Source: Xylophilus sp. ASV27 (GTDB lineage Bacteria > Pseudomonadota > Gammaproteobacteria > Burkholderiales > Burkholderiaceae_C). From it: a stretch of DNA of 64,000 nucleotides. The stretch lies in the NCBI RefSeq assembly GCF_016428875.1, contig NZ_JAELTO010000002.1, forward strand, positions 1-64,000. The letters are read 5' to 3'. Of this stretch, positions 18,937 through 49,730 are shown piece after piece (the stretch's first letter is position 1; the number at the start of each line of letters is the position of its first letter). Under the pieces are notes generated by a model. It was not told the origin of the DNA. It made no database searches and saw only the letters and a program-made list of their open reading frames with translations. Both the position numbers and the translations under genes were made by a program.

Positions 18937-20376
18937 ATGAGCCCCCACACCATCGTCGAACAGCTCGCCCATTTCGCCGCCGGCGTCGATATCGCCCAAC
19001 TGCCGGAGAACGTCGTGCAGGAGTGCAAGCGCGACATCCTCGACTCTCTCGGCGTCGCGCTGGCGGGCATCGATCACGCCCGGAGCCGCATCGGCATCGA
19101 GATGGCCCGCCGGATAGGCGGCAGCGCAGGCACTGCGACCATCATCGGCACCGGCGAGCGCTCGACTGTCTACGGCGCCGCCTTCGCCAACAGCGAGATG
19201 CTCAACGCGCTGGACGCCGATTCGGTGCTGCTGCCCGGGCACGTGAGCCCCTACGTGCTGCCCGGCGCCTTCGCCACGGCCGAGGCGCTGCGGCGCTCCG
19301 GCCGGGACCTGATCGCCGCCGTGGCGGTGTCGCACGAAATCTCCTGCCGCTTCGGCGCCGCGATGCCCGGCTACCGCGATACGAAGGACGGCAAGCTCGC
19401 CAACCCCGCCTCGGTCGTGGGCTACAGCAGCACCGTGTTCGGCGCCACCGCATCGGCAGGCAAGCTCAAGCGCCTGTCGGCCGCCCAACTGGCCAACGCA
19501 CTTGGCCTGGCCGCGGCCTCCGCGCCGGTCAACGCGCAGCGCGCCTGGTTCATGCATGCGCCCACGGCCACCATCAAGTACCAGTTGGCCGGCGGGATGA
19601 CCAGCGTCGCGCTCACTGCCGCCGACATGGGCGAACTGGGCCATCGCGGCGACCTGCGCATCCTGGACGACGAGGTCAACGGCTGGGCCAGCTTCATCGG
19701 AACCGACCGCTGGCTGCCCACCGCCATCACCGACGGCCTGGGCCAGGACTGGCGCTTTCCCGCGTTCCAGATGTTCAAGCCCTATCCGCACTGCCGCGTC
19801 ATGCACGCGCCGCTGGACCTGCTGATCGACATCGTGAGCACCCACGATCTGAAGCCGGACGAGATCGAGAGCATCACCTCCTTCGGCGAAGGCTGGGCCT
19901 ATGTGCTGCCCTGCTTCACCAGCCGCGAGATCCTGCAGGTGCACGACGCGCAGTTCTGCTTCGCGCACGGCCTGGCCGTGGCGGCCCACCGCATCCCGCC
20001 CGGCCCGCGCTGGCAGGACCCGGCGGTGGTGTTCGATCCGTCCGTGCTGGCGTTGATGAACCGGGTTTCGCTGCAGACCCACCCGGGCTACTTCCAGTCG
20101 GTGTCGACGGACATCTCCAGCCGCCCGTCGCGCGTGGAAGTGCGCGCGCGCGGCCAAGTCTTCGCCGGTGAGAAGATGTTCCCCAAGGGCACGCCCTCGG
20201 CCGACCCCTCGACCTACATGACGACGGAAGAACTGGTCGCCAAGTTCCGCAGCTTCGTCGACGGCCTGCTCCCCGCGGCGGCCATCGACCGGGCGGTGGA
20301 CAGCGTGCTGAACCTCGAACAGGTGAAGGACTTCGGCACCGTCATCCGCCAGTTCGTGCGCTCGCCGCAGCCCTGA
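18937..20376 (+). CDS. MmgE/PrpD family protein
   Basis: The 479-residue protein belongs to the same family as the product of 11539 but is clearly different in sequence. It has the N-terminal helical block CKRDILDSLGVALAGIDHARS, LNALDADSVLLPGHVSPYV in place of the usual D-D-H segment, and FKPYPHCRVMHAPLD in the lid domain. These are the canonical regions of 2-methylcitrate dehydratase relatives, so a hydro-lyase or decarboxylase acting on a polycarboxylate is expected. It is 11 bases upstream of the aldehyde dehydrogenase and surely co-transcribed. Confidence 0.88.
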   Translation: MSPHTIVEQLAHFAAGVDIAQLPENVVQECKRDILDSLGVALAGIDHARSRIGIEMARRIGGSAGTATIIGTGERSTVYGAAFANSEMLNALDADSVLLPGHVSPYVLPGAFATAEALRRSGRDLIAAVAVSHEISCRFGAAMPGYRDTKDGKLANPASVVGYSSTVFGATASAGKLKRLSAAQLANALGLAAASAPVNAQRAWFMHAPTATIKYQLAGGMTSVALTAADMGELGHRGDLRILDDEVNGWASFIGTDRWLPTAITDGLGQDWRFPAFQMFKPYPHCRVMHAPLDLLIDIVSTHDLKPDEIESITSFGEGWAYVLPCFTSREILQVHDAQFCFAHGLAVAAHRIPPGPRWQDPAVVFDPSVLALMNRVSLQTHPGYFQSVSTDISSRPSRVEVRARGQVFAGEKMFPKGTPSADPSTYMTTEELVAKFRSFVDGLLPAAAIDRAVDSVLNLEQVKDFGTVIRQFVRSPQP

Positions 20377-20387
20377 GGAGACAAGCC

Positions 20388-21860
20388 ATGAAAAGCCCGT
20401 CCCTGAACATGCCCCACGCCGACCGGCTCTACATCGGCGGCCGGTGGGTCCAGCCCTCCACCAGCGAGACGTTTGCCGTGCTCAACTGCGCCACCGAAGA
20501 GGTGGTGGCGCACGCCGCCCAGGCCACCGAATCCGACGTGGCCGCTGCCGTGCAGGCCGCGCGCGAGGCCTTCGACCACGGCCCCTGGCCACGCATGGCG
20601 CCGGCCGAGCGCGCCGCCTACCTGGAGAAGATCGCCGAGCGGCTCGAAGCGCTGAACGACGAGTTCGCGCGCGGCTGGAGCATCGAATCCGGCGTGCTCT
20701 ACAAAATAGCCAAGCCGCGCATCGGCCTGTTCCTGAGCGGCGCATTCCGCCAGTACACGGCCATGGCGCAGACCTATCCGTTCGTGGCGCCCACGCGCTC
20801 GGTCACCGGCCACCAGGCCTATCAGGTGCAGGAGCCCGTGGGCGTGGTCGCCGTGATCGTGCCGTGGAACGGCCCGGCCGGGCTGCTGGCCTACAAGCTC
20901 GCGCCCGCGCTGCTGGCGGGCTGCACGGCCGTCATCAAGAACACGCCCGAGACGCCGAGTTCGGGCCACCTGTTCGCGCAGATCTGCCACGAGGAGGGGC
21001 TGCCGCCCGGCGTGGTCAACATGGTGACGGCGGACCGGGCCGTGTCCGAGACGCTGGTGCGCCACCCCGGCGTGGACAAGATCACCTTCACCGGCTCCAC
21101 CGGCGCGGGCCGGCGCATCGGCGCCGTGGCCGCCGAGCGCGTGGCCCGCGTCACGCTGGAGCTGGGCGGCAAGTCGCCCGCCGTGGTGCTGGACGACTAC
21201 GACGTGGAGGCCGCCGCCAAGGTGCTGGGCGCGCCCTACTTCGGCTACCTCTCGGGCCAGGTCTGCCACAGCCTCACGCGCATCATCGTACCGGCCGCTA
21301 GGCACGACGCGATGGTCGAGGCACTGGCCGCCGCCGCGCGCAGCATGGTGTTGGGCGACCCGCTCGACGAGGCGACGAGCATGGGTCCGCTTGCCACGGC
21401 GGCGCAGCGCGGCGTGGTCGAGCGCATGGTGGCGCAAAGCGTCGCCCAGGGCGCGCAGCTCGTCACGGGCGGCAGGCGCCCCGCGCACCTCGGGCGCGGC
21501 TTCTTCTTCGAGCCCACGGTGTTCGCCAACGTGGACAGCCGCTCCTTCGCGGCGCAGAACGAGTTCTTCGGCCCCGTGCTGTCGGTGATCGCGGCCGACA
21601 GCGAACGGCACGCGATCGACATGGCCAACGACAGCATCTTCGGCCTCAACGCCGTGGTGTTCACCCACGACACCGAGCGCGCCATGCGCGTGGCGCGCCA
21701 GTTGCGCGCGGGCTCGGTGGGGCACAACGCCTCGCGCACGGACTTCTCGATCGGCTTCGGCGGCTTCAAACAGTCGGGCATCGGGCGCGAAGGCGGCGTG
21801 GGCGGACTCGAAGCCTTCCTCGAATCGAAGACCGTGGTGCTGGACCGGATGGCCTCCTGA
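20388..21860 (+). CDS. NAD(P)-dependent aldehyde dehydrogenase
   Basis: A 490-residue enzyme oxidising an aldehyde to a carboxylate. The catalytic cysteine is C293 in SGQVCHS and the general base is E258 in LELGGKSP. VPWNGPAGL holds the oxyanion asparagine, and the FTGSTGAG loop binds the cofactor. The residue before GQVC, serine, replaces the common asparagine, a minor oddity. The C-terminal GFGGFKQSGIGREGG signature is present. It would act on the product of the GMC enzyme upstream. The LysR gene starts 17 bases downstream. Confidence 0.94.
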   Translation: MKSPSLNMPHADRLYIGGRWVQPSTSETFAVLNCATEEVVAHAAQATESDVAAAVQAAREAFDHGPWPRMAPAERAAYLEKIAERLEALNDEFARGWSIESGVLYKIAKPRIGLFLSGAFRQYTAMAQTYPFVAPTRSVTGHQAYQVQEPVGVVAVIVPWNGPAGLLAYKLAPALLAGCTAVIKNTPETPSSGHLFAQICHEEGLPPGVVNMVTADRAVSETLVRHPGVDKITFTGSTGAGRRIGAVAAERVARVTLELGGKSPAVVLDDYDVEAAAKVLGAPYFGYLSGQVCHSLTRIIVPAARHDAMVEALAAAARSMVLGDPLDEATSMGPLATAAQRGVVERMVAQSVAQGAQLVTGGRRPAHLGRGFFFEPTVFANVDSRSFAAQNEFFGPVLSVIAADSERHAIDMANDSIFGLNAVVFTHDTERAMRVARQLRAGSVGHNASRTDFSIGFGGFKQSGIGREGGVGGLEAFLESKTVVLDRMAS

Positions 21861-21877: not shown

Positions 21878-22807
21878 ATGACCTTCAACCGACTGCACTT
21901 CATCCGTCAGGTCGATCTGTTCACGCTGCGGCTGTTCCTCTCGGCCGTGGATGAACAGCAGATCGGCCGCGCCGCGATCCGCGAGAATATCGCCGCATCC
22001 ACCGCCACCAAGCGCATCCAGGACTTCGAGGAGATCGCGGGCGTGCCGCTGCTGGAGCGCACGCCCAAGGGCGTGGTGGCCACACCGGCGGGCGAGGTCA
22101 TCGTGCGCTACATCCGCAAGCTGTTCTCCGACATGGACGACATGCGCGCGGAGATCGCCGCCTTCGGTGAAGGGCTGCGCGGCGAGGTGTTCGTGGCCTC
22201 GGCGCGCTCCATCTTCGTGCCGTTCCTCTCGCGCGAGTTGGGCAATTTCGCGCGCGATTTTCCGCAAGTGGACCTGGTGCTGCGCGAGCTGGAGAACACG
22301 GCCATCGTGCAGGCCGTGATCCAGGGAGACGCGGACATCGGCGTGTTCGCCATGGCGCCGGGGCTGGACCTGGGCGGAATCAACACCCACCCCTACCGCA
22401 CCGACCGGCTGGTGGCCGTGGTACCCGAGGCCCACCCGCTGGCCGCCCACGCAAGCGTTTCGTTCGAGGAACTCGTTCCCGAGAACCTGATCGTGATATC
22501 GGCCATGCACGCGACTTTCGCCAAGGCGGCGCGCAAGCTGGGCGGCGAATACAAGCCCAAATACAGCGTGCGCAGCACGGGCGTGGCCATGAGCCTGGCG
22601 CAGGCCCGGCTGGGGGTGACGGTGCAGCCCGAGTGCGACGTCGTGCAGGCGCAGATCGACGGCGTGGTGGCCGTGCCCATGTCGGACGCCTGGGCCCGGC
22701 GCATCGTGCAGATCGCCACCCCGCGCGAGCGCACGCTGAGCCCCGCCGCGCGCGCCTTGCTCGAGCAGTTGCTGAGCCGGCCGGCGGACACGCCGCCAGG
22801 CGCCTGA
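21878..22807 (+). CDS. LysR-family transcriptional regulator
   Basis: A 309-residue LysR protein with an N-terminal helix-turn-helix (around residues 18-75: DLFTLRLFLSAVD, then IAASTATKRIQDFEEIAGVPLLER) and a periplasmic-binding-like co-inducer domain with GDADIGVF. The recognition region is less canonical than usual. It is co-oriented with the GMC-aldehyde dehydrogenase genes rather than divergent, and probably co-transcribed. It is the best candidate to bind the shared motif at 17037 and 24059. Confidence 0.9.
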   Translation: MTFNRLHFIRQVDLFTLRLFLSAVDEQQIGRAAIRENIAASTATKRIQDFEEIAGVPLLERTPKGVVATPAGEVIVRYIRKLFSDMDDMRAEIAAFGEGLRGEVFVASARSIFVPFLSRELGNFARDFPQVDLVLRELENTAIVQAVIQGDADIGVFAMAPGLDLGGINTHPYRTDRLVAVVPEAHPLAAHASVSFEELVPENLIVISAMHATFAKAARKLGGEYKPKYSVRSTGVAMSLAQARLGVTVQPECDVVQAQIDGVVAVPMSDAWARRIVQIATPRERTLSPAARALLEQLLSRPADTPPGA

Positions 22808-23194
22808 TCAGGCGGCCGGCTCGGCAGGCGCGGCGGCCCGCGCGCCGCGCGGCTGCAGCAGCGCCCCGATCTCGTCCAGGCCAAAGCCGTACTCGCCCAG
22901 CAGCGCCTCGGTGCGCTCGCGCAGGCGCAGCGCCGAGTGGCGCAGCGTGGCCGGGCTCTCGCTCCACTGCTGCGGAATGCCGATGGTGCGAATCGTGCCC
23001 TCGCCCGGATGCTCCAGCACGCCGAAGAAGCCTACGGCCTGCCTGTGCGCGTCCTGCAGCAGGGTTTCGGGCGTGTTCATGGCGATGGCGGGGATGTCCA
23101 TGGCCTGCGGCCGCAGGCTGAACAGCAGCGCGTCCGCCGATGCCAGCACGCGCCGCTGTGCCGCCAGCCCGTGGGGGTGCTTCAGGTCCAGCAA
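22808..23194 (-). pseudogene. caiB-like pseudogene with internal deletion
   Basis: The frame reads as two separate parts of a CaiB protein joined in phase. LDLKHP...FSLRPQAM corresponds to residues near 72-101 of the protein at 29864, then it jumps to DIPAIAMNTPETLL, which corresponds to residue 309 onward, and runs through GIPQQWSES to a normal-looking C-terminus. About 207 residues including the catalytic aspartate are missing, and so is the N-terminus. The upstream end runs into the 3' end of the SDR gene. It cannot be a working transferase. The source gene was a close relative of 29864. Confidence 0.85.
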
Positions 23195-24009
23195 TGGATC
23201 GTGAGCCCGCCCGTCGGGCTGATGGCGGTGCCGGTGAGATGGGCCGCATCGTCCGACGCGAAGAAGGCCACGACCTTGCCGATGTCCGCCGGGCTGGCCA
23301 CGCCCAGCGGGCTGTGCGCGACGATCTTCTCGTACTGCCTGCGGTGCATGTCCGAGACGGTGCTGCCGGGGCCGAACACCGCGCTCCAGGACGGCGTGTC
23401 GCGCACCACGGTCACACAGACGCAGTTCACGCGGATGCGCTCCCGTGCCAGATCCCTGGCCAGCACCCTGCTCGCGGCAATCAGCCCGCCCGAGAAGCTG
23501 GCGATGGCCGTCTGCCCCGGCGTGGGGCTGCGCCCGCCCTCGGAGGTGACGAACACCACGCTGCCGCCGCCGCGCTCGCGCATCGCGGGCACGGCGGCCT
23601 GCACCACGAGCAGCTTGGCCGCGAGGGCCTGGCCGACGAACTGCGCGACGCGCTCCAGATCGATGCCGGCGAACGGGCCGCGCACCTCGGGCGAGCGCGC
23701 CTCATCGTCATTGCCGCCCGCGTTGGGCACCACGATGTCCACACCGCCGAAGCGGCGAACCGCCTCGGCCGCCACGGCCTGCATGTCGGCCCGGGAACGC
23801 ACGTCGCCTGGGGCGAAGCAGGCCTCGCCGCCCAGGTCGCGGATCTCGTCGAGCACGGCGCGGGCGTTGTCCGCGCTGCGCCCATTGACGACGACGCGCG
23901 CGCCGCGCGCTGCCAGTTGCAGCGCCACGCCTTTTCCGATGCCGCCCGTGCCGCCCGTGACGATGGCGACCCTGCCATCCAGTAGGTTGATCGTCGGATG
24001 TGGTGCCAT
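23182..24009 (-). CDS. SDR-family protein lacking the catalytic Tyr and Lys
   Basis: The 275-residue protein has a normal nucleotide-binding half (TGGTGGIGKG, residues 18-27; DV at 69-70; PNAGG at 95-99) and a catalytic-site serine in FVTSEGG. At the YxxxK position the sequence is I169-A-S-F-S173, so both key residues are gone. It may bind a nucleotide without ordinary dehydrogenase chemistry, or use another mechanism. The last few codons overlap the remains of a caiB gene, so its C-terminus could be altered. It is divergent from the acyl-CoA dehydrogenase at 24252, with a conserved motif between them. Confidence 0.85.
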   Translation of the reverse strand: MAPHPTINLLDGRVAIVTGGTGGIGKGVALQLAARGARVVVNGRSADNARAVLDEIRDLGGEACFAPGDVRSRADMQAVAAEAVRRFGGVDIVVPNAGGNDDEARSPEVRGPFAGIDLERVAQFVGQALAAKLLVVQAAVPAMRERGGGSVVFVTSEGGRSPTPGQTAIASFSGGLIAASRVLARDLARERIRVNCVCVTVVRDTPSWSAVFGPGSTVSDMHRRQYEKIVAHSPLGVASPADIGKVVAFFASDDAAHLTGTAISPTGGLTIHCWT

Positions 24010-24251: not shown

Positions 24252-25397
24252 ATGGCCAATTTCCTCGACGACTCGCAGCAGATGTGGCTCGACACCGTGA
24301 ACCGTTTCATGGACAACGAGATCACCGTCGAATACATCCGCAAGTGCGACGTGGGCCGCGACTACCCCTACGAGGCCTACGAGAAGATCGCCCGGCAAGG
24401 CTGGCTGGGCCTGCTGTTCAGCGAGGAGGAAGGCGGCGCCGGCGGCAACATCTTCGACTACACGCTGATGGCGGAGGGCCTGGGAAAGTACGGCTTCGAC
24501 TTCGCGGCCGCCATCCTGGTGCCCACCTTCACCGCGATGAACATCGCCAAGTACGGCTCGCCCGCGCAGAAAGAGAAGTACATCCGGCCCTTCATCGAAG
24601 GCAAGATCCGCTTCTCGGTGTCGATCTCCGAGCCCGACGCCGGCTCCGACGCTTCCAACACCAAGACCCGCGCGCGGCGCGACGCCAACGGCGACTGGAT
24701 CGTCAGCGGCCAGAAGCTCTGGTGCAGCGGCGCGGCGGCCAAGGACGTGGTGATCGCCATGCTGGTGCGCACCGACCCCGACAACAAGCACGGCGGCCTG
24801 TCGGTGCTGCTGATCCCGAACGACACGCCGGGCATGGTCATCAACAAGCTGCCCACGCTGTCGCGCCATGCCACCGGAACGACCGAGATCTTCCTCGACA
24901 ACGTGCGCGTGCCGGGCGACGCCATGCTGGGCGAGGAAGGCCAGGGCTGGAAGATCATCACCGAGCATCTGGAACTGGAACGCTGCTCGGTGGCCGCGGC
25001 CTACGTGGGCAATGCCCAGGAGGCGGTGTCGAACGCGGTGCGCTATGCGCATGAGCGCATCCAGTTCGGCAAGCAGTTGTGGGACTTCCAGGTGCTCAAG
25101 CACATGCTGGCAGACCGCCAGACCGAGGTCGATGCCGCGCGCCTGCTGTGTTACCGCGCCGCGCAACTGGCCGCCGAGCACAAGCCCTGCAGCCGCGAGG
25201 TGTCGATGGCCAAGCTCTACGGCTCCGAGACGCTCAAGGCCTGCGCGTTGACCGGCATGCAGGTGCTGGGCGGCTATGCCAACCTGCCGGAGGCCGACAT
25301 GGAGCGCTACCTGCGCGAGAGCATCCAGTGCACGATCGGCGGTGGCACCTCGCAGATCCAGAAGACCATCATCGCCAAGTCGATGCGTCTGGGTTGA
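24252..25397 (+). CDS. Acyl-CoA dehydrogenase, isovaleryl-type active site
   Basis: A 381-residue flavoenzyme. ISEPDAGSDASN and KLWCSGAA mark the FAD and acyl-CoA pocket. At the usual catalytic spot near the C-terminus the sequence is GGGTSQIQ, with G364 instead of glutamate. LELER at 240-244 matches the isovaleryl-CoA dehydrogenase pattern where the base comes from another helix, so E243 is the likely base. That points to branched substrates. The ATG at 24252 follows AAGGAG, and the frame is open back to 24000 without family resemblance. First gene of a plus-strand operon to 32313. Confidence 0.93.
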   Translation: MANFLDDSQQMWLDTVNRFMDNEITVEYIRKCDVGRDYPYEAYEKIARQGWLGLLFSEEEGGAGGNIFDYTLMAEGLGKYGFDFAAAILVPTFTAMNIAKYGSPAQKEKYIRPFIEGKIRFSVSISEPDAGSDASNTKTRARRDANGDWIVSGQKLWCSGAAAKDVVIAMLVRTDPDNKHGGLSVLLIPNDTPGMVINKLPTLSRHATGTTEIFLDNVRVPGDAMLGEEGQGWKIITEHLELERCSVAAAYVGNAQEAVSNAVRYAHERIQFGKQLWDFQVLKHMLADRQTEVDAARLLCYRAAQLAAEHKPCSREVSMAKLYGSETLKACALTGMQVLGGYANLPEADMERYLRESIQCTIGGGTSQIQKTIIAKSMRLG

Positions 25398-25414
25398 CCC
25401 CTTCGGAGACAAGC

Positions 25415-25912
25415 ATGAGCCTCATCAACAACCAGATCAACCAGACCTTCGACGAGCTGGAAGACGGCCAGGTCTTCAACTCGGGCGGCCGCACCATCAC
25501 CGAGACCGACGTGGTCAACTACTGCGCGCTCACCGGCAACTGGATCGCGATCCACTCCAACACGCTCTACGCCTCCAAGACCCGCTTTGGCAAGCGGCTG
25601 GTGCAGGGCGCCCTCACCTACTCCATCGCCACCGGCCTGATCCAGTTCGGCCTGGGCATCCAGGCCAACTACGGCATAGACAACATGCGCTTCCTCAAGC
25701 CCGTGCTGATCGACGACACCGTGTTCGCCAAGGCCACCGTGATCGGCAAGAAGGTCAAGGACGAGAAGTACGGCGTGATCAAGTTCCTGATCCAGGTGCA
25801 GAACCAGGACGGCGACGTAGTGCAGCAGGGCGAATGGAGCCTGTTGATGCTGCGCCGGCGCGAGGACCTCGACGCGCTGGTGGCCTCCACCTTGCCCGCG
25901 TCCAGGGGCTGA
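25415..25912 (+). CDS. MaoC-family single hot-dog hydratase
   Basis: The 165-residue protein has one hot-dog fold with the hydratase motif region YCALTGNWIAIHSN. The family usually has GDxNPxH. Here the aspartate position is N42 while H47 is kept, so catalysis may be altered. A GAGAC ribosome binding site precedes the ATG at 25415. It lies 17 bases after the acyl-CoA dehydrogenase, suggesting hydration of the enoyl-CoA product, and four bases before the AtuA-like gene. Confidence 0.88.
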   Translation: MSLINNQINQTFDELEDGQVFNSGGRTITETDVVNYCALTGNWIAIHSNTLYASKTRFGKRLVQGALTYSIATGLIQFGLGIQANYGIDNMRFLKPVLIDDTVFAKATVIGKKVKDEKYGVIKFLIQVQNQDGDVVQQGEWSLLMLRRREDLDALVASTLPASRG

Positions 25913-25916
25913 GGCC

Positions 25917-27275
25917 ATGAAGACCATCCGCATCGGCTCGGGCAGCGGTTTCTGGGGCGACAACCTCGACCCCGCGATCGAGATCGCCAGGCACGGCAAC
26001 GTGCAGTACCTCGCCTACGATTTCCTGGGCGAGCCCACTATTCCACTGCTGCAGAAGATGCGGCAGAAGAACCCCGCGCAGGGCTTCGTGCCTGCGATCC
26101 GCGCCGTGGTGCGCGGCGTGCTGCCGATCTGCCTCGAAAAAGGCATCAGGATCCTGACCAACGCGGGCGCGGCCAATCCTCAGGCCTGCGCCGACACCAT
26201 CCTTGCCTCGGCCAGGGAACTGGGCATCACCCGGCTCAAGGTCGGCATCGTCACGACGAACGACATCCAGCAGAAGGTCGAGCAACTGCTCGACAGCGGC
26301 GCGAAGTTCACCAACCTGGACACGGGCGACGACGACCTGGGCCGGGTGCGAGAGCGCATCGTCGGCTCCTACGTCTATTCCGGCGCCTATGGCTACGTGC
26401 AGGCGCTGCAGCAGGGCTGCGACATCATCATCTCCGACCGCGCGACCGATGACGCCGCCATCCTGGCGCCGCTGGTGCATGAATTCGGCTGGAAGTGGGA
26501 CGAATGGGACAAGCTCGCCACCGGCATCACGGCGGGCCACCTGATCGAATGCGGCGCGGCCTGCTCGGGCGGCATCACCAGCCTGTGGAAAGAGGTGCCC
26601 GAGCCGTGGAACATCGGCTACCCGATCGCCGAGGTCAACGAGAAGGGCGAGCTGTTCATCACCAAGGTGCACGGCACGGGCGGCCTGGTCAACACGATCA
26701 CGCTGACCGAGCACCTGCTGTACGAGGTGCACGACCCGGGCAACTACCTGATGCCCGAGGTCATCACCGACTTCACCCAGGTGCAGATGGAGGAGGTCGC
26801 CAAGGACCGCGTGAAGGTCTGGGGCGCCAGGGGCAAGCCAGCGCCCGCGACGCTCAAGGCCGGCATCGCCTACACCGACGGCTACATCGGCGAGGTCGAG
26901 TCCTCCGTGACCTGGCCTGACGCGGTGGCCAAGGCGCGGCGCTCGTTGGAGATCATCCGCAAGCGCTTCGAAATGGTGAAGCTCAAGGCCGACGAGGTGC
27001 GCTTCGACATGATCGGCGTCGATTCCTGCCACTGGTCCGCCTCGCCCGAGCCCGACCCTGAGATCAACGAGGTGCGCATCCGCGTGGCCGCCAAGTGCGC
27101 GGACCGCGCCGAGGCCGGCAAGGTGGCGCGCGAGTGCGTGATGCTGATGGGCACTGGCCCCATCGGCTCGACCGGCCAGTTGAACACGCCCGCGCCGCGC
27201 GAAGTGTTCGCGCTGTGGCCCACGCTGATCGCGCGCGAGGAAGTGGTGCAGAACGTAGAGACCAGGGAGCTTTGA
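25917..27275 (+). CDS. AtuA-like protein (DUF1446 domain)
   Basis: A 452-residue protein matching the DUF1446 domain of AtuA, named from acyclic terpene utilisation in Pseudomonas. Recognisable stretches are RIGSGSGFWGDNLDPAI at the start, TNAGAANPQACAD, DRATDDAAILAPLV, and the C-terminal LMGTGPIGSTGQL. The biochemical role of this domain is not known to me. Its steady association with CoA-ester catabolism suggests a CoA-dependent step. The usual C-terminal domain of AtuA is a separate gene here, starting two bases after this stop codon. Confidence 0.85.
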   Translation: MKTIRIGSGSGFWGDNLDPAIEIARHGNVQYLAYDFLGEPTIPLLQKMRQKNPAQGFVPAIRAVVRGVLPICLEKGIRILTNAGAANPQACADTILASARELGITRLKVGIVTTNDIQQKVEQLLDSGAKFTNLDTGDDDLGRVRERIVGSYVYSGAYGYVQALQQGCDIIISDRATDDAAILAPLVHEFGWKWDEWDKLATGITAGHLIECGAACSGGITSLWKEVPEPWNIGYPIAEVNEKGELFITKVHGTGGLVNTITLTEHLLYEVHDPGNYLMPEVITDFTQVQMEEVAKDRVKVWGARGKPAPATLKAGIAYTDGYIGEVESSVTWPDAVAKARRSLEIIRKRFEMVKLKADEVRFDMIGVDSCHWSASPEPDPEINEVRIRVAAKCADRAEAGKVARECVMLMGTGPIGSTGQLNTPAPREVFALWPTLIAREEVVQNVETREL

Positions 27276-27276
27276 C

Positions 27277-27618
27277 ATGGCCAAACTGCAACTGAAAGAT
27301 CTGGTGTACGCCCGCTCGGGCGACAAGGGCGACATCAGCAACATCGCCGTCATCGCCAAGGAGCCGCGCTTCTACCCTCTACTGCAGAAGCACCTGACGG
27401 CCGAGCGCGTGAAGGAGTTCTTCGGCGAAATGTCCAAGGGCCCCGTGGAGCGCTACGAGGTGCGCACACTGCATGCGATGAACTTCGTGCTGCGCAATTC
27501 GCTGGGCGGTGGCGCCACGCGCAGCCTGCGCGTCGACTTCACCGGCAAGACCATGTGCCAGGCCATCCTGCGCATCGTGCTGGAGGTCGATGAGAGCGAT
27601 CTCCGCCTCATTCATTGA
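27277..27618 (+). CDS. AtuA C-terminal-domain protein, separate small subunit
   Basis: A 113-residue protein equal to the carboxy domain that is fused to DUF1446 in full-length AtuA. Its opening LVYARSGDKGDISNIAVIA is the typical block. GGGATRSLRVD and a MCQAILRI strand follow. One base separates the preceding stop from this ATG, so the two products are very likely made together and form one complex. No catalytic residues are known to me. Confidence 0.82.
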   Translation: MAKLQLKDLVYARSGDKGDISNIAVIAKEPRFYPLLQKHLTAERVKEFFGEMSKGPVERYEVRTLHAMNFVLRNSLGGGATRSLRVDFTGKTMCQAILRIVLEVDESDLRLIH

Positions 27619-27631
27619 AGGAGACGCAGAC

Positions 27632-28816
27632 GTGAGCAGCAGCAAAGCCAGAATCATCGGCGTCAACATGGTGAAGTTCGCCAAGCCGGGATCGCACGAA
27701 CCCTACGAGGTCATGGGCGCCAAGGCCATCCAGGGCGCACTGCAGGATGCGGGCATCGGCTACGGCGAGGTACAGCAGGCATTCGCCGGCTATGTCTATG
27801 GCGACAGCACCTGCGGCCAGCGCGTGGCCTATGGCGTGGGCATGAGCGGCATTCCCGTTTTCAACCTGAACAACTACTGCGCCTCGGGCTCGTCCGCGCT
27901 GTTCCTGGCGCGCCAGGCGGTGGAGTCGGGCGCGATCGACTGCGCGCTGGCCTTCGGCTTCGAGGAGATGAAGCCCGGCGCTCTCGCCAGCGCCTTCGGC
28001 GACCGCACCTCGCCCGTGGGCTGGATCTACGAGCGCCAGCGCGAGCTGGCGCCCGATCTGCCGCAGGACGCGCCGCGCGCCATCAAGGCCTTCGGCTCGG
28101 CGGGCTGGGAGTACATCAACCGCCATGGGGCCAACCCCGACATCTTCGCCCGCGTGGCCGTGAAGACGCGCAGCCATGCGGTGCACAACCCCTACTCGCT
28201 GTTCACCAAGCCGCTGACGGTCGAGGAGGTGATGGGCGCCGCGCCGATGTACCCCTATCTCACGCGCCTGATGGCCTGCCCGCCCACCTGCGGCGCGGCG
28301 GCGGCCATCGTCTGCAGCGAGGCGTTCGCAAGGAAGCACGGCATCGGCAACGCCGTCGAAATCGCGGCCCAGGCCATGACCACGGACACCGAGGCCAGCA
28401 AGACCGACCTGATCAACCTGGTGGGCGCGGACATGACGCGCCGCGCCGCCCGCGAGGTCTATGAGAAGGCGGGCATCGGCCCCGAAGACCTGAACGTGGT
28501 GGAACTGCACGACTGCTTCACGCCCAACGAGGTCATCAGTTACGAGGGCCTGGGCCTGTGCCCCGAGGGCGGTGCCGAGAAGTTCATCGCCGACGGCGAC
28601 AACACCTACGGCGGCAGGTACGTCGTCAACCCGTCGGGCGGCCTCATGTCCAAGGGCCACCCGCTGGGCGCGACCGGCCTGGCGCAGTGCGCCGAACTCG
28701 TGTGGCACCTGCGCGGCCAGGCCGGCCAGCGCCAGGTCGAGAACGCGCGCATCGCGCTGCAGCACAACATCGGCCTGGGCGGCGCCTGTGTGGTGACGAT
28801 GTACCGGCGCGCCTGA
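27632..28816 (+). CDS. SCP-x/lipid-transfer-type thiolase
   Basis: A 394-residue thiolase of the sterol-carrier-protein type. C83 in NYCASGSSAL is the acyl acceptor, HDCFTPNE holds the HDCF block typical of this branch, and GHPLGATG has the catalytic histidine. Such enzymes often cleave branched or steroid-like 3-ketoacyl-CoA. I chose the GTG at 27632 because AAGGAG lies nine bases upstream; no ATG fits in frame. It is part of the acyl-CoA dehydrogenase-MaoC-AtuA operon and would close the cycle. Confidence 0.92.
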   Translation: MSSSKARIIGVNMVKFAKPGSHEPYEVMGAKAIQGALQDAGIGYGEVQQAFAGYVYGDSTCGQRVAYGVGMSGIPVFNLNNYCASGSSALFLARQAVESGAIDCALAFGFEEMKPGALASAFGDRTSPVGWIYERQRELAPDLPQDAPRAIKAFGSAGWEYINRHGANPDIFARVAVKTRSHAVHNPYSLFTKPLTVEEVMGAAPMYPYLTRLMACPPTCGAAAAIVCSEAFARKHGIGNAVEIAAQAMTTDTEASKTDLINLVGADMTRRAAREVYEKAGIGPEDLNVVELHDCFTPNEVISYEGLGLCPEGGAEKFIADGDNTYGGRYVVNPSGGLMSKGHPLGATGLAQCAELVWHLRGQAGQRQVENARIALQHNIGLGGACVVTMYRRA

Positions 28817-28850
28817 CGGCTGCCGGCCTTCAATGAACAAGGAGACGATG

Positions 28851-29858
28851 ATGACCAACCACCTGGACCGCCGAGGCTGGATGCAGTCGGCCACCCTGGT
28901 CGCGGCCTGCGCGGTGGCGGGCCTTTTCGGGGCCGGCAGCGCCCAGGCCCAGGACTGGCCGACCAAGCCCGTGCGCATCGTGCTAGCCATCGGCCCGGGC
29001 TCCTCCGGCGACACGCTGGCGCGCATGATGGCGCCCAGGCTGGAGGCGCGCTGGAAACAGCCCGTGATCGTGGAGAACAAGCCCGGCGCGGGCGGCGTGG
29101 TGGGCACCGAGTACGTGGTGCGCGCTACCGACGGACACACGCTGCTGCTGGGCACGCAAAGCTCCATCCTGCCCAAGTACACGCAGAAGGGCCTGCGCTT
29201 CGACCCGCTCACCGACCTGGTGCCCGTGCGCAAGGTGCTGAACTATCAGCTCGTGATCGCCACGAATGGCGAGACGGCGAAGCAGGCCCGCACGCTCAAG
29301 GAGCTGATCGACCTGAGCAAGAAAGGCAGCCAGGGGCTCTTCCTTGCGGGCCTTGGGCCGACGTCCGTCTTCAACCTGTCCTACGCCATCCTCAACCGTC
29401 AGCTCGGGGCCCGGTACTCCTCGGTGAACTTCAACAACGTCAACGACGCGAACCTGGCCGTGATGCGCAACGACGCACAGTTCATCGTCAATAACCCGGC
29501 ATCGGTCAGGCCCTACTTCGCCACCAATGCAATCGTGCCGCTGGCCGCCATCGGCATGCAGCGCTATGCCAGCCTGCCCGACGTGCCGACCCTGCAGGAG
29601 GCCGTGGGCTATAGCGGCTACCTGCCCCAGTTGTGGACGGGCTTCTTCGTGCCCAGGAACACGCCGGCGGCCCTCGTGGAGCGGATCAGCCAGGACGTGG
29701 CTGCGATCTTCGAAGAACCGGAATTCCGCAGGCAAGTGGAGGACAAGCTCACCGCATCGGTGGCGTCCTCGTCGCCTGATGCCTTCGCCAAGGACATCCG
29801 CGAAGAGACGACGCTCTGGCAAGATCTGTTCAAGAGCCTGAACATCCAACCGGAGTAA
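28851..29858 (+). CDS. TTT (Bug) family periplasmic solute receptor
   Basis: The 335-residue receptor begins with a signal peptide (RRGWMQSATLVAACAVAGLFGAGSAQAQ). RR near the start hints at Tat but is not a strict motif. The mature part has [24 protein letters not shown], with the carboxylate loop NKPGAGGVVGTEYV. Of three nearby ATGs (28833, 28848, 28851), the last has AAGGAG at the best distance. Closely similar to the receptor at 40586 along its whole length. Five bases separate it from the following CaiB gene. Confidence 0.92.
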   Translation: MTNHLDRRGWMQSATLVAACAVAGLFGAGSAQAQDWPTKPVRIVLAIGPGSSGDTLARMMAPRLEARWKQPVIVENKPGAGGVVGTEYVVRATDGHTLLLGTQSSILPKYTQKGLRFDPLTDLVPVRKVLNYQLVIATNGETAKQARTLKELIDLSKKGSQGLFLAGLGPTSVFNLSYAILNRQLGARYSSVNFNNVNDANLAVMRNDAQFIVNNPASVRPYFATNAIVPLAAIGMQRYASLPDVPTLQEAVGYSGYLPQLWTGFFVPRNTPAALVERISQDVAAIFEEPEFRRQVEDKLTASVASSSPDAFAKDIREETTLWQDLFKSLNIQPE

Positions 29859-29863
29859 TCGGC

Positions 29864-31078
29864 ATGGCAGGTCCTCTCACCGGGGTGCGCATCCTCGACC
29901 TCACGTCCAATTTCATGGGGCCCTACGCCTCGCTGCTGCTGGCCGACATGGGCGCGGACATCTGCAAGATCGAAGCGCCCGCGGGTGACCCCACGCGCGG
30001 CGTCGGCCCCTGCCGCAACCCGGGCATGAGCGCCATCTTCCTGCACCTCAACCGCAACAAGCGCAGCGCGGTGCTGGACCTCAAGAACGCCCGGGCCGCG
30101 GAGGCGCTGCGGACCATGCTGGCATCGGCCGACGTGGTGCTGCACAGCCTGCGCCCCAAGGCGATGGCCCGGCTCGGGCTGGCCTACGAACAGGTCAGGA
30201 CCGTCAACCCGCGGATCATCTACTGCGGCGCCTTCGGCTTCGGCCAGAACGGCCCGTATGCGGATCGGCCCGCGTACGACGACCTGATCCAGGCGGCCGT
30301 GGGCATGCCCGTGCTGCAGGCGCGCAAGGTGGGCCCGCCCGCCTACGTGGCCACCGCCATCGCCGACCGCCTGGTGGGCATGGCCACCAGCAACGCCGTG
30401 GCCATGGCACTGTACTACCGCGAGAAGACCGGCCGCGGCCAGTCGGTGCAAGTGCCCATGTTCGAAACCTTCGCGCACTTCGTGATGGGCGACCATCTCT
30501 ACGGCCACAGCTTCGAGCCGCCGATCGGCGACTGGGGCTACGCCCGCATGATGAGCGCCGAGCGCCGCCCCTACCAGACCCAGGACGGCTACGTGGGCGT
30601 CAACATCTATACCGACCGCCACTGGCGGCGCTTTTTCCTGGCCGTGGGCCGCGCCGACATGGCGGACGACCCGCGCTACGGCACCATCTTCGGCCGCACC
30701 GAGAACATCGCCGACCTCTACCGGTTCCTGGCCGAGACCTTCCAGACCAAGACCACGGCGGAGTGGCTGCGCCTCCTGATCGAGGCCGACATCCCGATCA
30801 TCGAGATGAACACGCCCGGCACCCTGCTGCACGACCCGCACATGCAGGCGGTGAATTTCTTCCAGATGCAGCAGCACCCGAGCGAAGGCCTGCTGCGCAT
30901 GCTGGGCATTCCGCAGCAATGGAGCGAAAGCGCCCCCGAGCAGCGCTACCCCGCGCCGCGCCTGGGCGAGCACACCCTGCAACTGCTGACCGAATACGGG
31001 CTGGCGCGGGACCAAGCGCAGCAGGTCATCGCTGCGGGCGGCGCCATGCAGGCCCCTGCCGTGGAATATCAAAAATGA
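29864..31078 (+). CDS. CaiB/BaiF class III CoA-transferase
   Basis: A 404-residue transferase with LTSNFMGPYASLLLADMGAD at the N-terminus, NRNKRSAVLDLKN near 65, and the expected aspartate D168 in ATAIADRLVG. The late block NTPGTLLHDPHMQAVNFFQ is shared with the pseudogene at 22808, marking a common subgroup. The last codons (EYQK) and the stop lie inside a dispersed repeat (31070-31113), so the C-terminus has been set by the repeat. It probably activates the acid delivered by the receptor just upstream. Confidence 0.9.
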   Translation: MAGPLTGVRILDLTSNFMGPYASLLLADMGADICKIEAPAGDPTRGVGPCRNPGMSAIFLHLNRNKRSAVLDLKNARAAEALRTMLASADVVLHSLRPKAMARLGLAYEQVRTVNPRIIYCGAFGFGQNGPYADRPAYDDLIQAAVGMPVLQARKVGPPAYVATAIADRLVGMATSNAVAMALYYREKTGRGQSVQVPMFETFAHFVMGDHLYGHSFEPPIGDWGYARMMSAERRPYQTQDGYVGVNIYTDRHWRRFFLAVGRADMADDPRYGTIFGRTENIADLYRFLAETFQTKTTAEWLRLLIEADIPIIEMNTPGTLLHDPHMQAVNFFQMQQHPSEGLLRMLGIPQQWSESAPEQRYPAPRLGEHTLQLLTEYGLARDQAQQVIAAGGAMQAPAVEYQK

Positions 31079-31113
31079 TAGCTGGAAGCGCTTGACGCAC
31101 TAGGGCTACAGCC
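31070..31113. repeat. Dispersed intergenic repeat, copy 3 (reverse orientation)
   Basis: Read on the minus strand it has GGCTGTAGCCC, a variant first loop with AAGCGCTT, and AGCTATCATTTTT. It overlaps the last codons of the caiB gene at 29864 and fills most of the gap to the next caiB gene. Confidence 0.65.
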
Positions 31114-31143
31114 CGATTCGCTTTGAGAATTAAGGAGATGACG

Positions 31144-32313
31144 ATGCAGGACGACATGCGATCCGACCTGCCCCTGGCAGGCGTGACCGTGGTGGAGCTG
31201 GGCGACAGCGCCTCGGCGCCGTTCGCGGGGCAAATACTGGCCGGCCTGGGCGCGGAGGTGTGGAAGGTGGAGCGCCCCACGGGCGACTCCTCGCGCGGCT
31301 GGGGGCCGAGCCAGTGGAGGAGCAGCGGCGCGGCCTTCCACGCGCTCAACCGCGGCAAGCGCTCGATCTGCCTGGACATCAAGGACAGGGTGCAACTGGC
31401 CACGCTGCACGACCTGATCGAGCGCCATACCGACGTGTTCCTGCACAACCTGCGCCCGGGCAGCGCCCACCAGTACCGGCTCGACCCCGAGAGCCTGCGC
31501 CAGCGCAAGCCCGGGCTGGTGGTCTGCGAAGTCGGCGCCTACGGCCACGTCGGCCCGCTCAACAAGCTGCCCGGCTACGACCCGCTGATGCAGGCCTTCG
31601 CCGGCATCATGAGCCTGACCGGCGAGGAAGGCCAGGCGCCCGTGCGCGCGGGCGTCTCCATCGTCGACTTCGGCACCGGCATGTGGGCCGTGATCGGCAT
31701 CGTCTCGGCGCTGCTGCGGCGCGAACGCAGGCAGATCGGCGCCACCGTCAACAGTTCGCTGCTGGAGACCGCCATCGCCTGGATGTCGGTCGGCGTCGCC
31801 AACTACGCCGCCGACGGCGAGCCCGGCGGGCGCCACGGCTCGGGCGTGGCCTTCATCGTGCCGCACCGCGCCTACGAGGCGGCCGACGGCCACGCCATCA
31901 TCAGCGCCGCCAACGACCGGTTGTTCGCGCGGCTGTGCGAGGCGCTGGGCCACCCCGAATGGGCGAGTGACGCCAGGTTCGCCACCAACGCCGCGCGCCT
32001 GGCCCACCGCAAGGAAATCGACACGCTGATCGGCCAGCGCATGAAGCAGCACACGCGCGACCACTGGCAAAAGCACCTCGACGGCTACGGCCTGCCCTGC
32101 GCCTCGGTACAGACCACGGCCGAGCTGGTGGCGCACGCGCAGACCCGGGCGCTGGGCATTCTAGGCAAGAGCCGCGAAGACGAAATCGCCCTGGTGGGCA
32201 TGCCGCTTTCCTTCGACGGGCAGCGCCCGCCGCCGCTCGATTCCGCACCCGGCATCGGGCAGGACGACGAGCGCTTGCACGAACTGATGCGGGCCAACGG
32301 CAAAGGGGAATAG
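31144..32313 (+). CDS. CaiB/BaiF class III CoA-transferase
   Basis: The second CaiB of the operon, 389 residues and only distantly similar to the first. N-terminal ELGDSASAPFAGQILAGLGAE, LNRGKRSICLDI, aspartate D175 in SIVDFGTGM, and the tail MPLSFDGQRPPPL. TAAGGAG with six-base spacing selects the ATG at 31144 over the one at 31138. Two unlike CaiB proteins may form a heteromer or act on different steps. A C-terminal relative survives as a remnant at 41989-42409. Confidence 0.9.
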   Translation: MQDDMRSDLPLAGVTVVELGDSASAPFAGQILAGLGAEVWKVERPTGDSSRGWGPSQWRSSGAAFHALNRGKRSICLDIKDRVQLATLHDLIERHTDVFLHNLRPGSAHQYRLDPESLRQRKPGLVVCEVGAYGHVGPLNKLPGYDPLMQAFAGIMSLTGEEGQAPVRAGVSIVDFGTGMWAVIGIVSALLRRERRQIGATVNSSLLETAIAWMSVGVANYAADGEPGGRHGSGVAFIVPHRAYEAADGHAIISAANDRLFARLCEALGHPEWASDARFATNAARLAHRKEIDTLIGQRMKQHTRDHWQKHLDGYGLPCASVQTTAELVAHAQTRALGILGKSREDEIALVGMPLSFDGQRPPPLDSAPGIGQDDERLHELMRANGKGE

Positions 32314-32315
32314 AC

Positions 32316-32369
32316 ATGCGACGCAGGCAACTGATGCATGCGCTGGCCGCGCTCGGCCTGACGTGCTGA
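32316..32369 (+). pseudogene. TTT receptor remnant: signal peptide only
   Basis: ATG followed by RRRQLMHALAALGL looks like the amino end of a Bug receptor signal peptide, starting two bases after the caiB stop. After 15 or so codons the sequence switches to racemase coding sequence in another frame, and a stop follows at once. The junction is near 32357. The 42.5-kb block has a receptor remnant at the same place after its caiB gene. Confidence 0.6.
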
Positions 32370-33262
32370 TCGAGGGCTTTCGCTCCGGCGTGATGGAGCG
32401 CCTGGGCCCGGGGCCCGACGCTTGCCTGCAAACTAAACCACGCCTGGTCTGTGGCCGCATGGCGGTCTGGGGCCGGGACGGACCACTGGCCCAGGCGCCC
32501 GGGCACGATGTGAACTACATCTCGCTGACCGGCACGCTGCACGCCATGGGCCGCGCGGGCGAGGCGCCCGCCACTCCGCTGAACCTGATGGGTGCCTTCG
32601 GCAACTGCTCGCTGTACCTGGCGCTTGGCGTGCTCAGCGCGCTTCTGGAGGCACGCAGTTCCGGTCAGGGCCAGGTGGTCGATGCCGCCATGGTCGATGG
32701 CACCACCTCGCTGATGACGCTGCTCTACGGCTTCCTGGCCGCCGGCTACTGGAAGGATGAACGCGGCGCGAACCGCCTCGACTCCGGCGCGCCCTGGTAC
32801 ACCGTATACGAAACCCAGGGCGGCAAGCACGTCAGCATCGCCGCCAACGAAACGCGCTTCTACCGCGAAGCGCTGGGCGTGATGGGCCTCAAGAAAGAGG
32901 ACCTGCCCGGCCACCAGCACGACCAGGCCGGCTGGCCGTACATGAAGCAGCGCATTGCAGACGTCTTCAAGACCCGTACGCGCGACGAATGGGTCCGGCT
33001 CGCCGCCGGCACGCAATCGTGAATAGCGCCCGCGCTATCCATGGCCGAGGTGCCGTACCATGCTCACATCCAGGAGCGCAACTGCCTCGTCGAGGTCGAA
33101 GGCGTGGCGCAGCCCGCGCCGGCTCCGCGCTTCAGCCGCACCCTCGACGCCATCCAGAACCCGCCGCAGCGCCCGGGCCAGGACGCGGAGGCGGTGCTCG
33201 GCGACTGGGGCTTCTCCGCCCAGGAGCAGCAGGCCCTGCGCGCTGCGGGCGCGGTGCTGTAG
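32357..33262 (+). pseudogene. CoA racemase pseudogene, 5' truncated, internal TGA
   Basis: The reading frame matches the racemases at 12954 and 60392 from their residue 89 or so (DVLIEGFRSGVMERLG) to the C-terminus, but the first 85-90 codons are gone. A TGA at 33020-33022 stands where the intact relatives have cysteine (GSESCIT), and the frame continues without a shift to 33262. The catalytic aspartate is replaced by alanine (NLMGAFGNC), while GHDVNYIS keeps the histidine. Three independent defects make this dead. The left end is fused to a receptor signal peptide. Confidence 0.88.
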
Positions 33263-33350: not shown

Positions 33351-34316
33351 ATGACGATAGCCGCACTTGAAGCCTGGCACCCGGAGTTGCGCGATGTGAT
33401 TCCGACGACACGAGCTTTCACCCTGCGCTCGGAGTTCGTCGGCGGTACCTTTGCGGTGTGGGTGACGGTGCCGCCGGGATACGGTGCAGGAACTGCCGCC
33501 TTGCCCGTGCTTTACGTTTTGGATGGCAACACGCAGCTTGCGATCACCGCCCCCACTGGCTCGCTGATGATGATGCACGAGACCAGCCCGATCCGGCCAT
33601 TCATCCAAGTGACTGTTGGATACTTCGGCGACGACGCGAGAAATTTCCTGAAGGTGCGCAACCGCGACCTCGTGCCGCCGAGCGAGCCGTTCCCTCACCA
33701 GATGGCGGCTCATCTGCGCCCCCGCGTCGAGCGGGGAGCGCTTAGCGAAGCACAATACGCCGCGGTCATCGCCGATCTACGCCAATCCGCTGGTGATCGG
33801 TTTCTCGCCTTCCTTGAGCGCGAACTTCACCCTCGTATCGCCGAGCTCTGGCGAGTGGATGCCCATGACGTCGGCCTTTTCGGCTATTCCTACGGCGGAC
33901 TCTTCGCCATGTACGTGTTTGCGACGTCCAACCCGCTATTCACCGTGATCGGAGCGAGCAGCCCCGGCATACTTTCGGAGAAGAGCGAAGTGTTCCATCA
34001 CTACGATCGCCGCATCGCCGAGGGAGACAGCACGCTGCCGCCCCGGCTGCACCTGACGATCAACGACAGCGAGACGAGTAGCGAGTTCGCGCTCTATCGA
34101 GACCTCTCGCACAACTATCTGGCACTCGTAGACCGTATCCGCCGCACCCCGCTTCCAGGCTTGCGCGCGACGGCCGAGGTGATCCGAGGCGAGACCCATG
34201 GCACCGGCATCGTCGACGCCTACCGCAGCTTCGTGCGTTCCTGCTACGGGGTGAGGGGGCATGATCCCCGTACCGAGCTCTCATGGCCTGCTGTGGAAGT
34301 TCCTGGTTGTCGCTAG
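33351..34316 (+). CDS. Putative esterase, alpha/beta hydrolase (esterase D/IroE-like)
   Basis: A 321-residue serine hydrolase with VLYVLDGNTQLAI near the start and the nucleophile elbow GYSYGGLFAMY. A late GETHGTG could supply the histidine. This is the fold of esterases that act on siderophores, S-formylglutathione or acyl sugars. AAAAGGAG precedes the ATG at 33351. It opens the plus-strand island 33.3-40.4 kb, whose codon choice is less strictly G/C-ending than the rest, a hint of separate origin. No signal peptide. Confidence 0.8.
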   Translation: MTIAALEAWHPELRDVIPTTRAFTLRSEFVGGTFAVWVTVPPGYGAGTAALPVLYVLDGNTQLAITAPTGSLMMMHETSPIRPFIQVTVGYFGDDARNFLKVRNRDLVPPSEPFPHQMAAHLRPRVERGALSEAQYAAVIADLRQSAGDRFLAFLERELHPRIAELWRVDAHDVGLFGYSYGGLFAMYVFATSNPLFTVIGASSPGILSEKSEVFHHYDRRIAEGDSTLPPRLHLTINDSETSSEFALYRDLSHNYLALVDRIRRTPLPGLRATAEVIRGETHGTGIVDAYRSFVRSCYGVRGHDPRTELSWPAVEVPGCR

Positions 34317-34363
34317 TCCACCGAAGTACTCACTCCTGCAGTTCTATCAGCGCTGAAGCCACC

Positions 34364-49681: not shown

Positions 49682-49730
49682 GCCTGCAGCCCAGGTAAGA
49701 CCTGGGTTATTAGCTATATTTTTTGTAGCA
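49682..49730. repeat. Dispersed intergenic repeat, copy 4
   Basis: GCCTGCAGCCCAGG, CCTGGGTTATTAGCTAT and TTTTTTGTAGCA, close to copies 1 and 5. It overlaps the 3' end of the CoA-transferase homologue at 49710, whose last residues CYKKYS and stop are encoded by the repeat. Confidence 0.75.

Follow-up and report, generated by a model that had tools for sequence, protein, structure and literature searches.

An AtuA pair in an acyl-CoA operon of Xylophilus sp. ASV27: a probable two-chain lyase in place of hydroxyacyl-CoA dehydrogenation

In the acyclic terpene pathway of Pseudomonas the protein AtuA combines an AtuA fold with a ferredoxin-like domain, and the accessible parts of two papers name or speculate on an acetate lyase activity for it (PMC4847356, PMC9973270). 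Two further systems connect this family with a defined reaction. CmlAB (PDB 9erq and 9evf) consists of an AtuA-family large chain of 456 amino acids and a second chain of 105, acts according to its title on citramalate and not on a CoA thioester, and has ADP bound in 9evf; no published paper on the structure was found. In the anaerobic naphthalene-degrading culture N47, the genes thnQ and thnS are described in the accessible text of a review as an 'AtuA-like lyase' said to be proven, by unpublished results, to form 3-oxoazeloyl-CoA by cleaving a tertiary 3-hydroxyacyl-CoA; the thiolase ThnV then cleaves this product (PMC12016498). This article describes a pair of AtuA genes found in a stretch of 64,000 nucleotides of Xylophilus sp. 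ASV27 (contig NZ_JAELTO010000002.1, positions 1 to 64,000; hereafter the window), where they lie inside an operon of acyl-CoA enzymes. Gene order, homology, predicted fold, motif conservation and the exchange of cassettes between related operons suggest that the pair is probably a two-chain C–C lyase replacing hydroxyacyl-CoA dehydrogenation. An earlier note on this DNA regarded the AtuA reaction as not established, a statement overtaken by the two-chain citramalate lyase and by the report on ThnQS.

Each of the described systems shares part of its design with the window. The AtuA fold and the ferredoxin-like part are those of the Pseudomonas protein; however, the Pseudomonas-class loci fetched have a fused AtuA beside a biotin carboxylase and a crotonase. 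With the seeds used, no biotin carboxylase or carboxyltransferase of an acyl-CoA carboxylase was matched in the 64 kb, and the one crotonase match lies at 57.6 kb. The fold of the large CmlAB chain matches the modeled window AtuA over its whole length, at 14–16% identity in structural alignments. ThnQS, likened by its description in the accessible text (PMC12016498), has adjacent AtuA-like genes together with acyl-CoA dehydrogenase (ACAD), hydratase(s), CoA-transferase and thiolase as in the window, but belongs to a sulfate-reducing culture and to a cyclic substrate; in the part of the NaphS2 genome paper at hand, NPH_5903 is named only a conserved hypothetical protein. In the steroid side-chain systems Ltp2-ChsH2 and Sal-Shy, hydration by a MaoC protein is followed by a C–C cleavage that replaces dehydrogenation and thiolysis, as described in the available sections (PMC12329534, PMC11321319). 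The cleaving enzymes CtSal and TcLtp2 are retro-aldolases of thiolase fold bound to a DUF35 protein, and CtSal, with Gly at the Cys site, cannot thiolyse, according to the same portion of PMC12329534. They differ from the window pair in having a thiolase and not an AtuA fold and in forming acyl-CoA plus an aldehyde or ketone, and their make-up, a thiolase fold with DUF35, is the one that replaces AtuA in the kin operons described below.

The operon runs on the + strand from 24252 to 32313 with intergenic gaps of 1–44 bases, as seen by direct reading and hidden Markov model (HMM) searches. It begins with an ACAD (24252–25397; PF00441/02770/02771) and a MaoC hydratase in which alignments show Asn42-x4-His47 instead of Asp/His (25415–25912). 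The AtuA large subunit, a proposed C–C lyase and CmlA homologue (25917–27275; PF07287, 452 bits, cut-off 22.8, profile positions 1–436 of 437), is separated by exactly one base (27275/27277) from an AtuA_ferredoxin-like small subunit, a possible CmlB counterpart (27277–27618; PF23544, 106 bits, cut-off 27). An SCP2-type thiolase follows (27632–28816; NF006102 lipid-transfer protein, 636 bits, cut-off 436; PDB 6hsj, E 3.3e-131), and then a TctC-type solute-binding protein (28833–29858; PF03401, 115 bits) and two CaiB/Frc family III CoA-transferases (29864–31078 and 31123–32313; PF02515, 370 and 358 bits). Coordinates and profiles bear out what the earlier note had read from the DNA: an isovaleryl-type ACAD, a MaoC with Asn, DUF1446 and its C-terminal domain as two genes one base apart, an SCP-type thiolase, a TctC protein (its tripartite tricarboxylate transporter receptor) and two CaiB proteins, with AtuA placed between dehydrogenation and thiolysis.

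From this order a pathway can be proposed whose substrate would be a β-branched acyl-CoA carrying a second, free carboxylate. The acid would be taken up with the help of TctC and loaded with CoA by CaiB, ACAD would introduce a 2,3-double bond at the branched carbon, and the Asn/His MaoC would hydrate it to a tertiary 3-hydroxyacyl-CoA, whose alcohol would be closed to oxidation by any dehydrogenase. A retro-aldol cleavage of C3–C4 by the AtuA pair would then yield a 3-oxoacyl-CoA together with a free carboxylic acid, and the SCP2-type thiolase would free acetyl-CoA. With C–C cleavage placed between hydration and thiolysis, a 3-hydroxyacyl-CoA dehydrogenase (HAD) would not be needed and AtuA would stand in for it.

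The residues of the flanking enzymes are compatible with these roles. ACAD has Glu in the motif HLELER, which we take to be the isovaleryl-type place of the catalytic base, and Gly in IGGGT at the usual base site, an arrangement found in 12/12 kin loci. The Asn42-x4-His47 of MaoC is likewise kept in 12/12; these loci are not independent, since most were found by MaoC search and two couples of them (L200/L201 and L197/L202) are near copies. The PDB relatives 1q6w, 4ffu and PaaZ carry Asp at the place of Asn42. Among the best 30 MaoC places of 150 family genomes, one that is 45% identical also has Asn (L162, the gene of locus L191), and 27 of the other 28, the window's own excluded, have Asp and one Leu. 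Asn42 and His47 align with Asn226 and His231 of the mesaconyl-CoA hydratase MeaC (8HGN), which have the same spacing and are the putative catalytic residues of an enzyme whose substrate is a branched dicarboxylyl-CoA, according to the accessible part of PMC10164722; MeaC is a two-domain MaoC protein and the similarity is weak (domain E ~2e-4 and 7e-4). That the exchange of Asp for Asn leaves MaoC dead was rejected as the default, given the 12/12 conservation and the putative role in 8HGN, and the window enzyme need not be inactive. The thiolase retains the nucleophilic Cys (NYCASGS) as well as the HDCF and GHP motifs, as expected for SCP2-thiolase type 1.

The pair was compared with citramalate lyase by predicted structure and by sequence profile. 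The model of the large subunit (mean predicted local distance difference test score, pLDDT, 59; predicted template modeling score 0.66; alignment of 5 rows) has a single outstanding PDB match, 9evf_A, entitled 'Citramalate lyase - ADP - pyruvate complex' (Foldseek E 2.8e-16; VIA-align Z 19.6, root-mean-square deviation 3.7 over 277 residues; next row Z 6.3). A profile search (hmmsearch) finds 9erq_A at E 3.3e-5, 'Acyclic terpene utilization AtuA family protein | Citramalate lyase, subunit A (cmlA)', and phmmer of the large subunit against PDB gave nothing relevant. The small-subunit model (pLDDT 72) ranks 9evf_B first with a weak match (Foldseek E 0.29, Z 5.4), and neither phmmer against PDB nor a profile search matched the small subunit to CmlB by sequence. 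NCBIfam holds no family for either part, and the viral contigs searched contained no AtuA relatives. Ten core residues (Y154, R175, D178, G207, H208, E211, C212, Y269, E270 and D285) are identical in 82/82 non-orthologous AtuA rows.

The main new argument that AtuA performs the cleavage step, although short of proof, comes from operons in which the pair is replaced. Among plasmid records, 34 had MaoC (6 opened, plus L194 and L196) and 161 had AtuA (7 opened). Four kin operons, of Cupriavidus pinatubonensis (L197), Cupriavidus sp. P-10 (L202), Burkholderia arboris (L198) and Paracoccus versutus (L199), encode ACAD proteins 84–89% and MaoC proteins 62–79% identical to those of the window. Part of them also share CaiB at 68–75% (the first 72% in L198 and 68% in L199; the second 70–75% in all four), TctC at 59% (L197, L202), LysR at 62% (L202, L198), aldehyde dehydrogenase at 70–71% (L197, L199) and the unusual short-chain dehydrogenase/reductase (SDR) discussed below at 70–71%. 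In the ~18 kb read of each, AtuA and its small subunit had no match at E 1e-3. Present instead are a thiolase-fold protein of 21–23% identity, with His at the position of the window's nucleophilic Cys, and a protein above the cut-offs of OB_ChsH2_C and zf-ChsH2 (DUF35); this pair likewise fills the slot of the Cys-thiolase. The Roseobacter plasmids L200 and L201 are more distant; there Gly occupies the Cys site, and the Tyr of VYDSF is present. Such alternation between AtuA and DUF35 cassettes among operons with 84–89% identical ACAD is new here.

A second ACAD/MaoC clade comprises L194 of Sulfitobacter dubius and L196 of Paraburkholderia fungorum, both AtuA loci carried by conjugative plasmids, with ACAD at 66% and Asn-MaoC at 45–47%, together with the DUF35 locus L200. 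Both cassette types therefore stand on each side of the deepest ACAD/MaoC split, which received 100/100 in both gene trees (11 loci), and the starred branches of these trees force at least two changes of the DUF35 label. L194 and L196 count as partial versions, because the thiolase seeds had no match in the stretch read and the AtuA pair of L196 is divergent from ACAD/MaoC. Locus L191, from a genome of the family, has the ACAD/MaoC pair and neither cassette within 18 kb. Tentatively, and with a little less than even confidence, these operons may be regarded as mobile, undescribed routes: a tertiary 3-hydroxyacyl-CoA with a free carboxylate would be formed by an isovaleryl-type ACAD together with an Asn/His MaoC and then be cleaved by interchangeable, unrelated cassettes (AtuA lyase plus true thiolase, or Cys-less thiolase-fold protein plus ChsH2-type DUF35), neither of which would need a hydroxyacyl-CoA dehydrogenase. 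The earlier note had seen in the locus the best candidate in the window for an undescribed degradation route: no description of the operon was found in open-licence literature, where other names for it were not searched, while the chemistry of an AtuA-family lyase has already been reported.

The distribution of AtuA places the window operon in a wider frame. AtuA-family genes occur in 52/100 sampled genomes of the window's family (own genome included), and the window genome carries two further loci on contigs C449 and C38. Neighborhoods were compared for 85 AtuA loci, namely the window, L034–L037 and 80 fetched loci (L067–L146; 78 from other genomes and the two of the window's own), which are a chosen part of the matches in family and phylum genomes; L038, with a partial AtuA, was left out. 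Neighbors within 5.5 kb on the same strand (LysR on either strand) were called with tblastn from a fixed set of seeds, so that other genes stayed unlabeled; the gene caller overlooked genes in genomes of medium GC content. The pair is split in 52/85 loci and fused in 27/85, the 6/85 lacking a small-subunit call being kept outside both counts; the idea that a split AtuA is a rare oddity was rejected on these numbers. Split loci (n = 52) have as neighbors TctC (19), CitMHS (8), enoyl-CoA hydratase (7), ACAD (3) and carboxylase (1), with LysR near 19, and fused loci (n = 27) enoyl-CoA hydratase (22), carboxylase (14) and ACAD (14). HAD, represented by one PaaH seed, was found at 0/52 split and 2/27 fused loci, and SDR at 3/52 and 11/27. 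The three split loci with ACAD are the window and its two orthologues.

These same three loci are the only ones of the 85 that unite split AtuA, ACAD, MaoC and thiolase within 5.5 kb. Outside it, the plasmid loci L194, L195 and L196 are partial versions of the arrangement. A scan of 84,980 species (one genome each) with AtuA gave five loci, the closest being Azohydromonas australica (L035, 92%) and Sphingobium sp. C100 (L034, 88%) and the three others 38–41% identical; in 100 family and 398 phylum genomes the best AtuA other than the window genome's own was at most 44% identical, though further ones may have escaped the word patterns of the scan. A. australica and Sphingobium sp. C100 keep the five-gene block in synteny, at nucleotide identities of ~86% and ~80%, and beyond the block L035 shares TctC at 65% and the first CaiB at 75%. 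The five-gene unit is real, beyond chance, and rare. Such identities across a beta- and an alpha-proteobacterium point to horizontal transfer, and the unit is probably shared horizontally. Insertion-sequence genes are seen upstream of the block in both relatives: IS66 Orf2 in L034 (7022–7375, −), and IS200-like and OrfB_IS605 genes in L035 (3316–3681, −, and 3758–5020, +). In the AtuA tree a long branch carries the clade of the window and its two orthologues (100/100); its placement next to L087, a split AtuA adjoining a carboxylase, is weak (89/78).

Several observations weigh against the lyase reading, foremost the presence in the same cluster of a second β-oxidation set: a thiolase (4238–5449, −), an intact SDR with YSAAK (5524–6273, −), an MFE2-type hydratase (6297–7172, −) and an ACAD (7402–8550, +), identified by HMM and, for the SDR, by motif. 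The earlier note described the operon as lacking a normal 3-hydroxyacyl-CoA dehydrogenase and the only nearby SDR as lacking catalytic residues. This holds for the operon itself and for the SDR at 23182–24009; with an intact SDR and a second set nearby it does not hold for the cluster. The second set could act on the same substrate during a further turn, or else on the MaoC product directly. Ordinary β-oxidation, in which MaoC forms a secondary alcohol that is oxidised by the SDR at 5524–6273 or a genomic HAD and thiolysed by the SCP2-type thiolase, AtuA being unrelated or accessory, is nonetheless unlikely. It can draw on this set, on its orthologues in L035, located after the AtuA block and running in the same direction (73–86%; SDR 86%), on another SDR after the thiolase in L034 and on four strong PF02737 matches, all of which lie on other contigs of the genome. 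It leaves aside that AtuA and its partner stand between MaoC and thiolase in 3/3 orthologous loci, that the intact SDR has a full hydratase, thiolase and ACAD set of its own, and that the kin operons have the DUF35 pair and no Cys-thiolase in the slot.

The SDR at 23182–24009 (−), by motif reading and orthologue alignment, has a normal cofactor motif and lacks YxxxK. Its non-canonical site, TSEGG..PT..QTA, is shared by the window and 3/3 orthologues found (L035, L197 and L202; 70–74% identity); decay to a pseudogene was rejected on this basis, and the protein may have a different catalytic role in the pathway.

The surroundings of split AtuA genes in general also speak against cleavage of a thioester. 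Many lie with a carboxylate transporter (TctC or CitMHS in the counts above, TRAP in others) and without acyl-CoA genes, a context that fits free-acid substrates as for citramalate lyase. Cleavage by AtuA of a free hydroxy-dicarboxylate, with the CoA enzymes handling other compounds before or after this step in the same route, would agree with this and with the title of the closest solved relative, a citramalate lyase with bound pyruvate. This alternative is considered less probable still than ordinary β-oxidation: the thiolase directly after AtuA suggests a 3-oxoacyl-CoA as its product, and the window lineage, L087, L194, L195 and L196 all lie among acyl-CoA genes and share His266. Residue 266 is Gln in L036, L037, L089 and L203–L206 and in 81/82 rows, L087 being the exception. 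At residue 215 the window clade shares Ala with L087, L194 and L196; L195 has Cys, L206 has His, and the remaining loci compared have Gln. Since L036, L089 and fused loci are also near acyl-CoA genes, the His266 mark tracks lineage rather than context. Compact arrangements of LysR, CitMHS, split AtuA and small subunit with no adjoining acyl-CoA gene (L203, 5592–8666; L206, 5657–8660; also L068 and L080) are candidates for free hydroxy-acid lyase loci. The family locus L089 has both kinds of cleaving gene together, split AtuA and a thiolase-fold protein with a DUF35 match, in the company of a crotonase, an MFE2-type hydratase, CaiB and several TctC; the match to its thiolase-fold protein did not span the Cys site.

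That the SCP2-type thiolase is itself the retro-aldolase, AtuA being a helper or acting in another step, is very improbable: thiolase-fold retro-aldolases exist (CtSal and TcLtp2, in the available part of PMC12329534), but the window enzyme keeps the Cys, at whose place CtSal has Gly, as well as HDCF and GHP, and DUF35, to which CtSal is bound, has no match in the window (L197 seed, E 1e-5).

The remaining reservations about the lyase reading concern AtuA itself and the comparisons. The window protein deviates at near-invariant positions (G114T, D115N, N152Y, A168C, G174D, Q215A, Q266H and D281E) and may therefore catalyse a different reaction; of these residues, T114, N115, Y152, C168, D174 and E281 are common to the three orthologues and seldom or never occur in the remaining 82 rows. 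The quality of the large-subunit model is modest. In those thiolase-fold proteins of DUF35 type that are closest to the window, the Tyr that serves CtSal and TcLtp2 as a base is missing (SVNF against YDCY in CtSal, as given in the accessible text on these enzymes), so that the aldolase role of the kin cassettes is likewise only presumed; moreover, each cassette would cleave a different bond. The CaiB proteins match seven named CoA-transferase models with scores that fall far short of the cut-offs, and ThnP is a family I CoA-transferase, by the part of PMC11659651 available, while those of the window belong to family III.

Further genes of the cluster complete the picture. A LysR protein, the likely regulator of the cluster (21878–22807, +; PF03466/PF00126), is 52% identical in L034, and an aldehyde dehydrogenase precedes it (20388–21860, +; NCBIfam matches, none above cut-off among the matches listed). 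A CaiB C-terminal remnant of 128 amino acids (22808–23194, −; profile 303–359 of 366) adjoins the unusual SDR, and where this remnant lies L035 has a CaiB frame of 405 amino acids; a second partial CaiB frame of 219 amino acids lies at 32363–33022 (+; profile 88–302). A large regulator of 815 amino acids with AAA, TPR-like and LuxR-type helix-turn-helix parts (34283–36730, +) lies within the catabolic cluster, as do two acetyl-CoA hydrolase/transferase family proteins (36797–38071, +; 49710–51020, −). Two MmgE/PrpD family proteins were found (11539–12951, −; 18937–20376, +), one adjoining a GMC oxidoreductase (17176–18795); an MmgE relative (52%) also occurs in L191 near the Asn-MaoC.

AtuA-family genes are common, and neither Pfam nor NCBIfam assigns the pair a reaction. 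The operon of Xylophilus sp. ASV27 places one AtuA pair between defined neighbors and predicts a substrate class, a bond and a product, which makes the role of the family directly testable; the kin operons, with 84–89% identical ACAD and the other cleaving cassette, provide a natural control. If the proposal is true, an AtuA lyase would give aerobic bacteria a passage past a tertiary alcohol in β-oxidation, and this would help to annotate the degradation of branched and alicyclic dicarboxylic acids.

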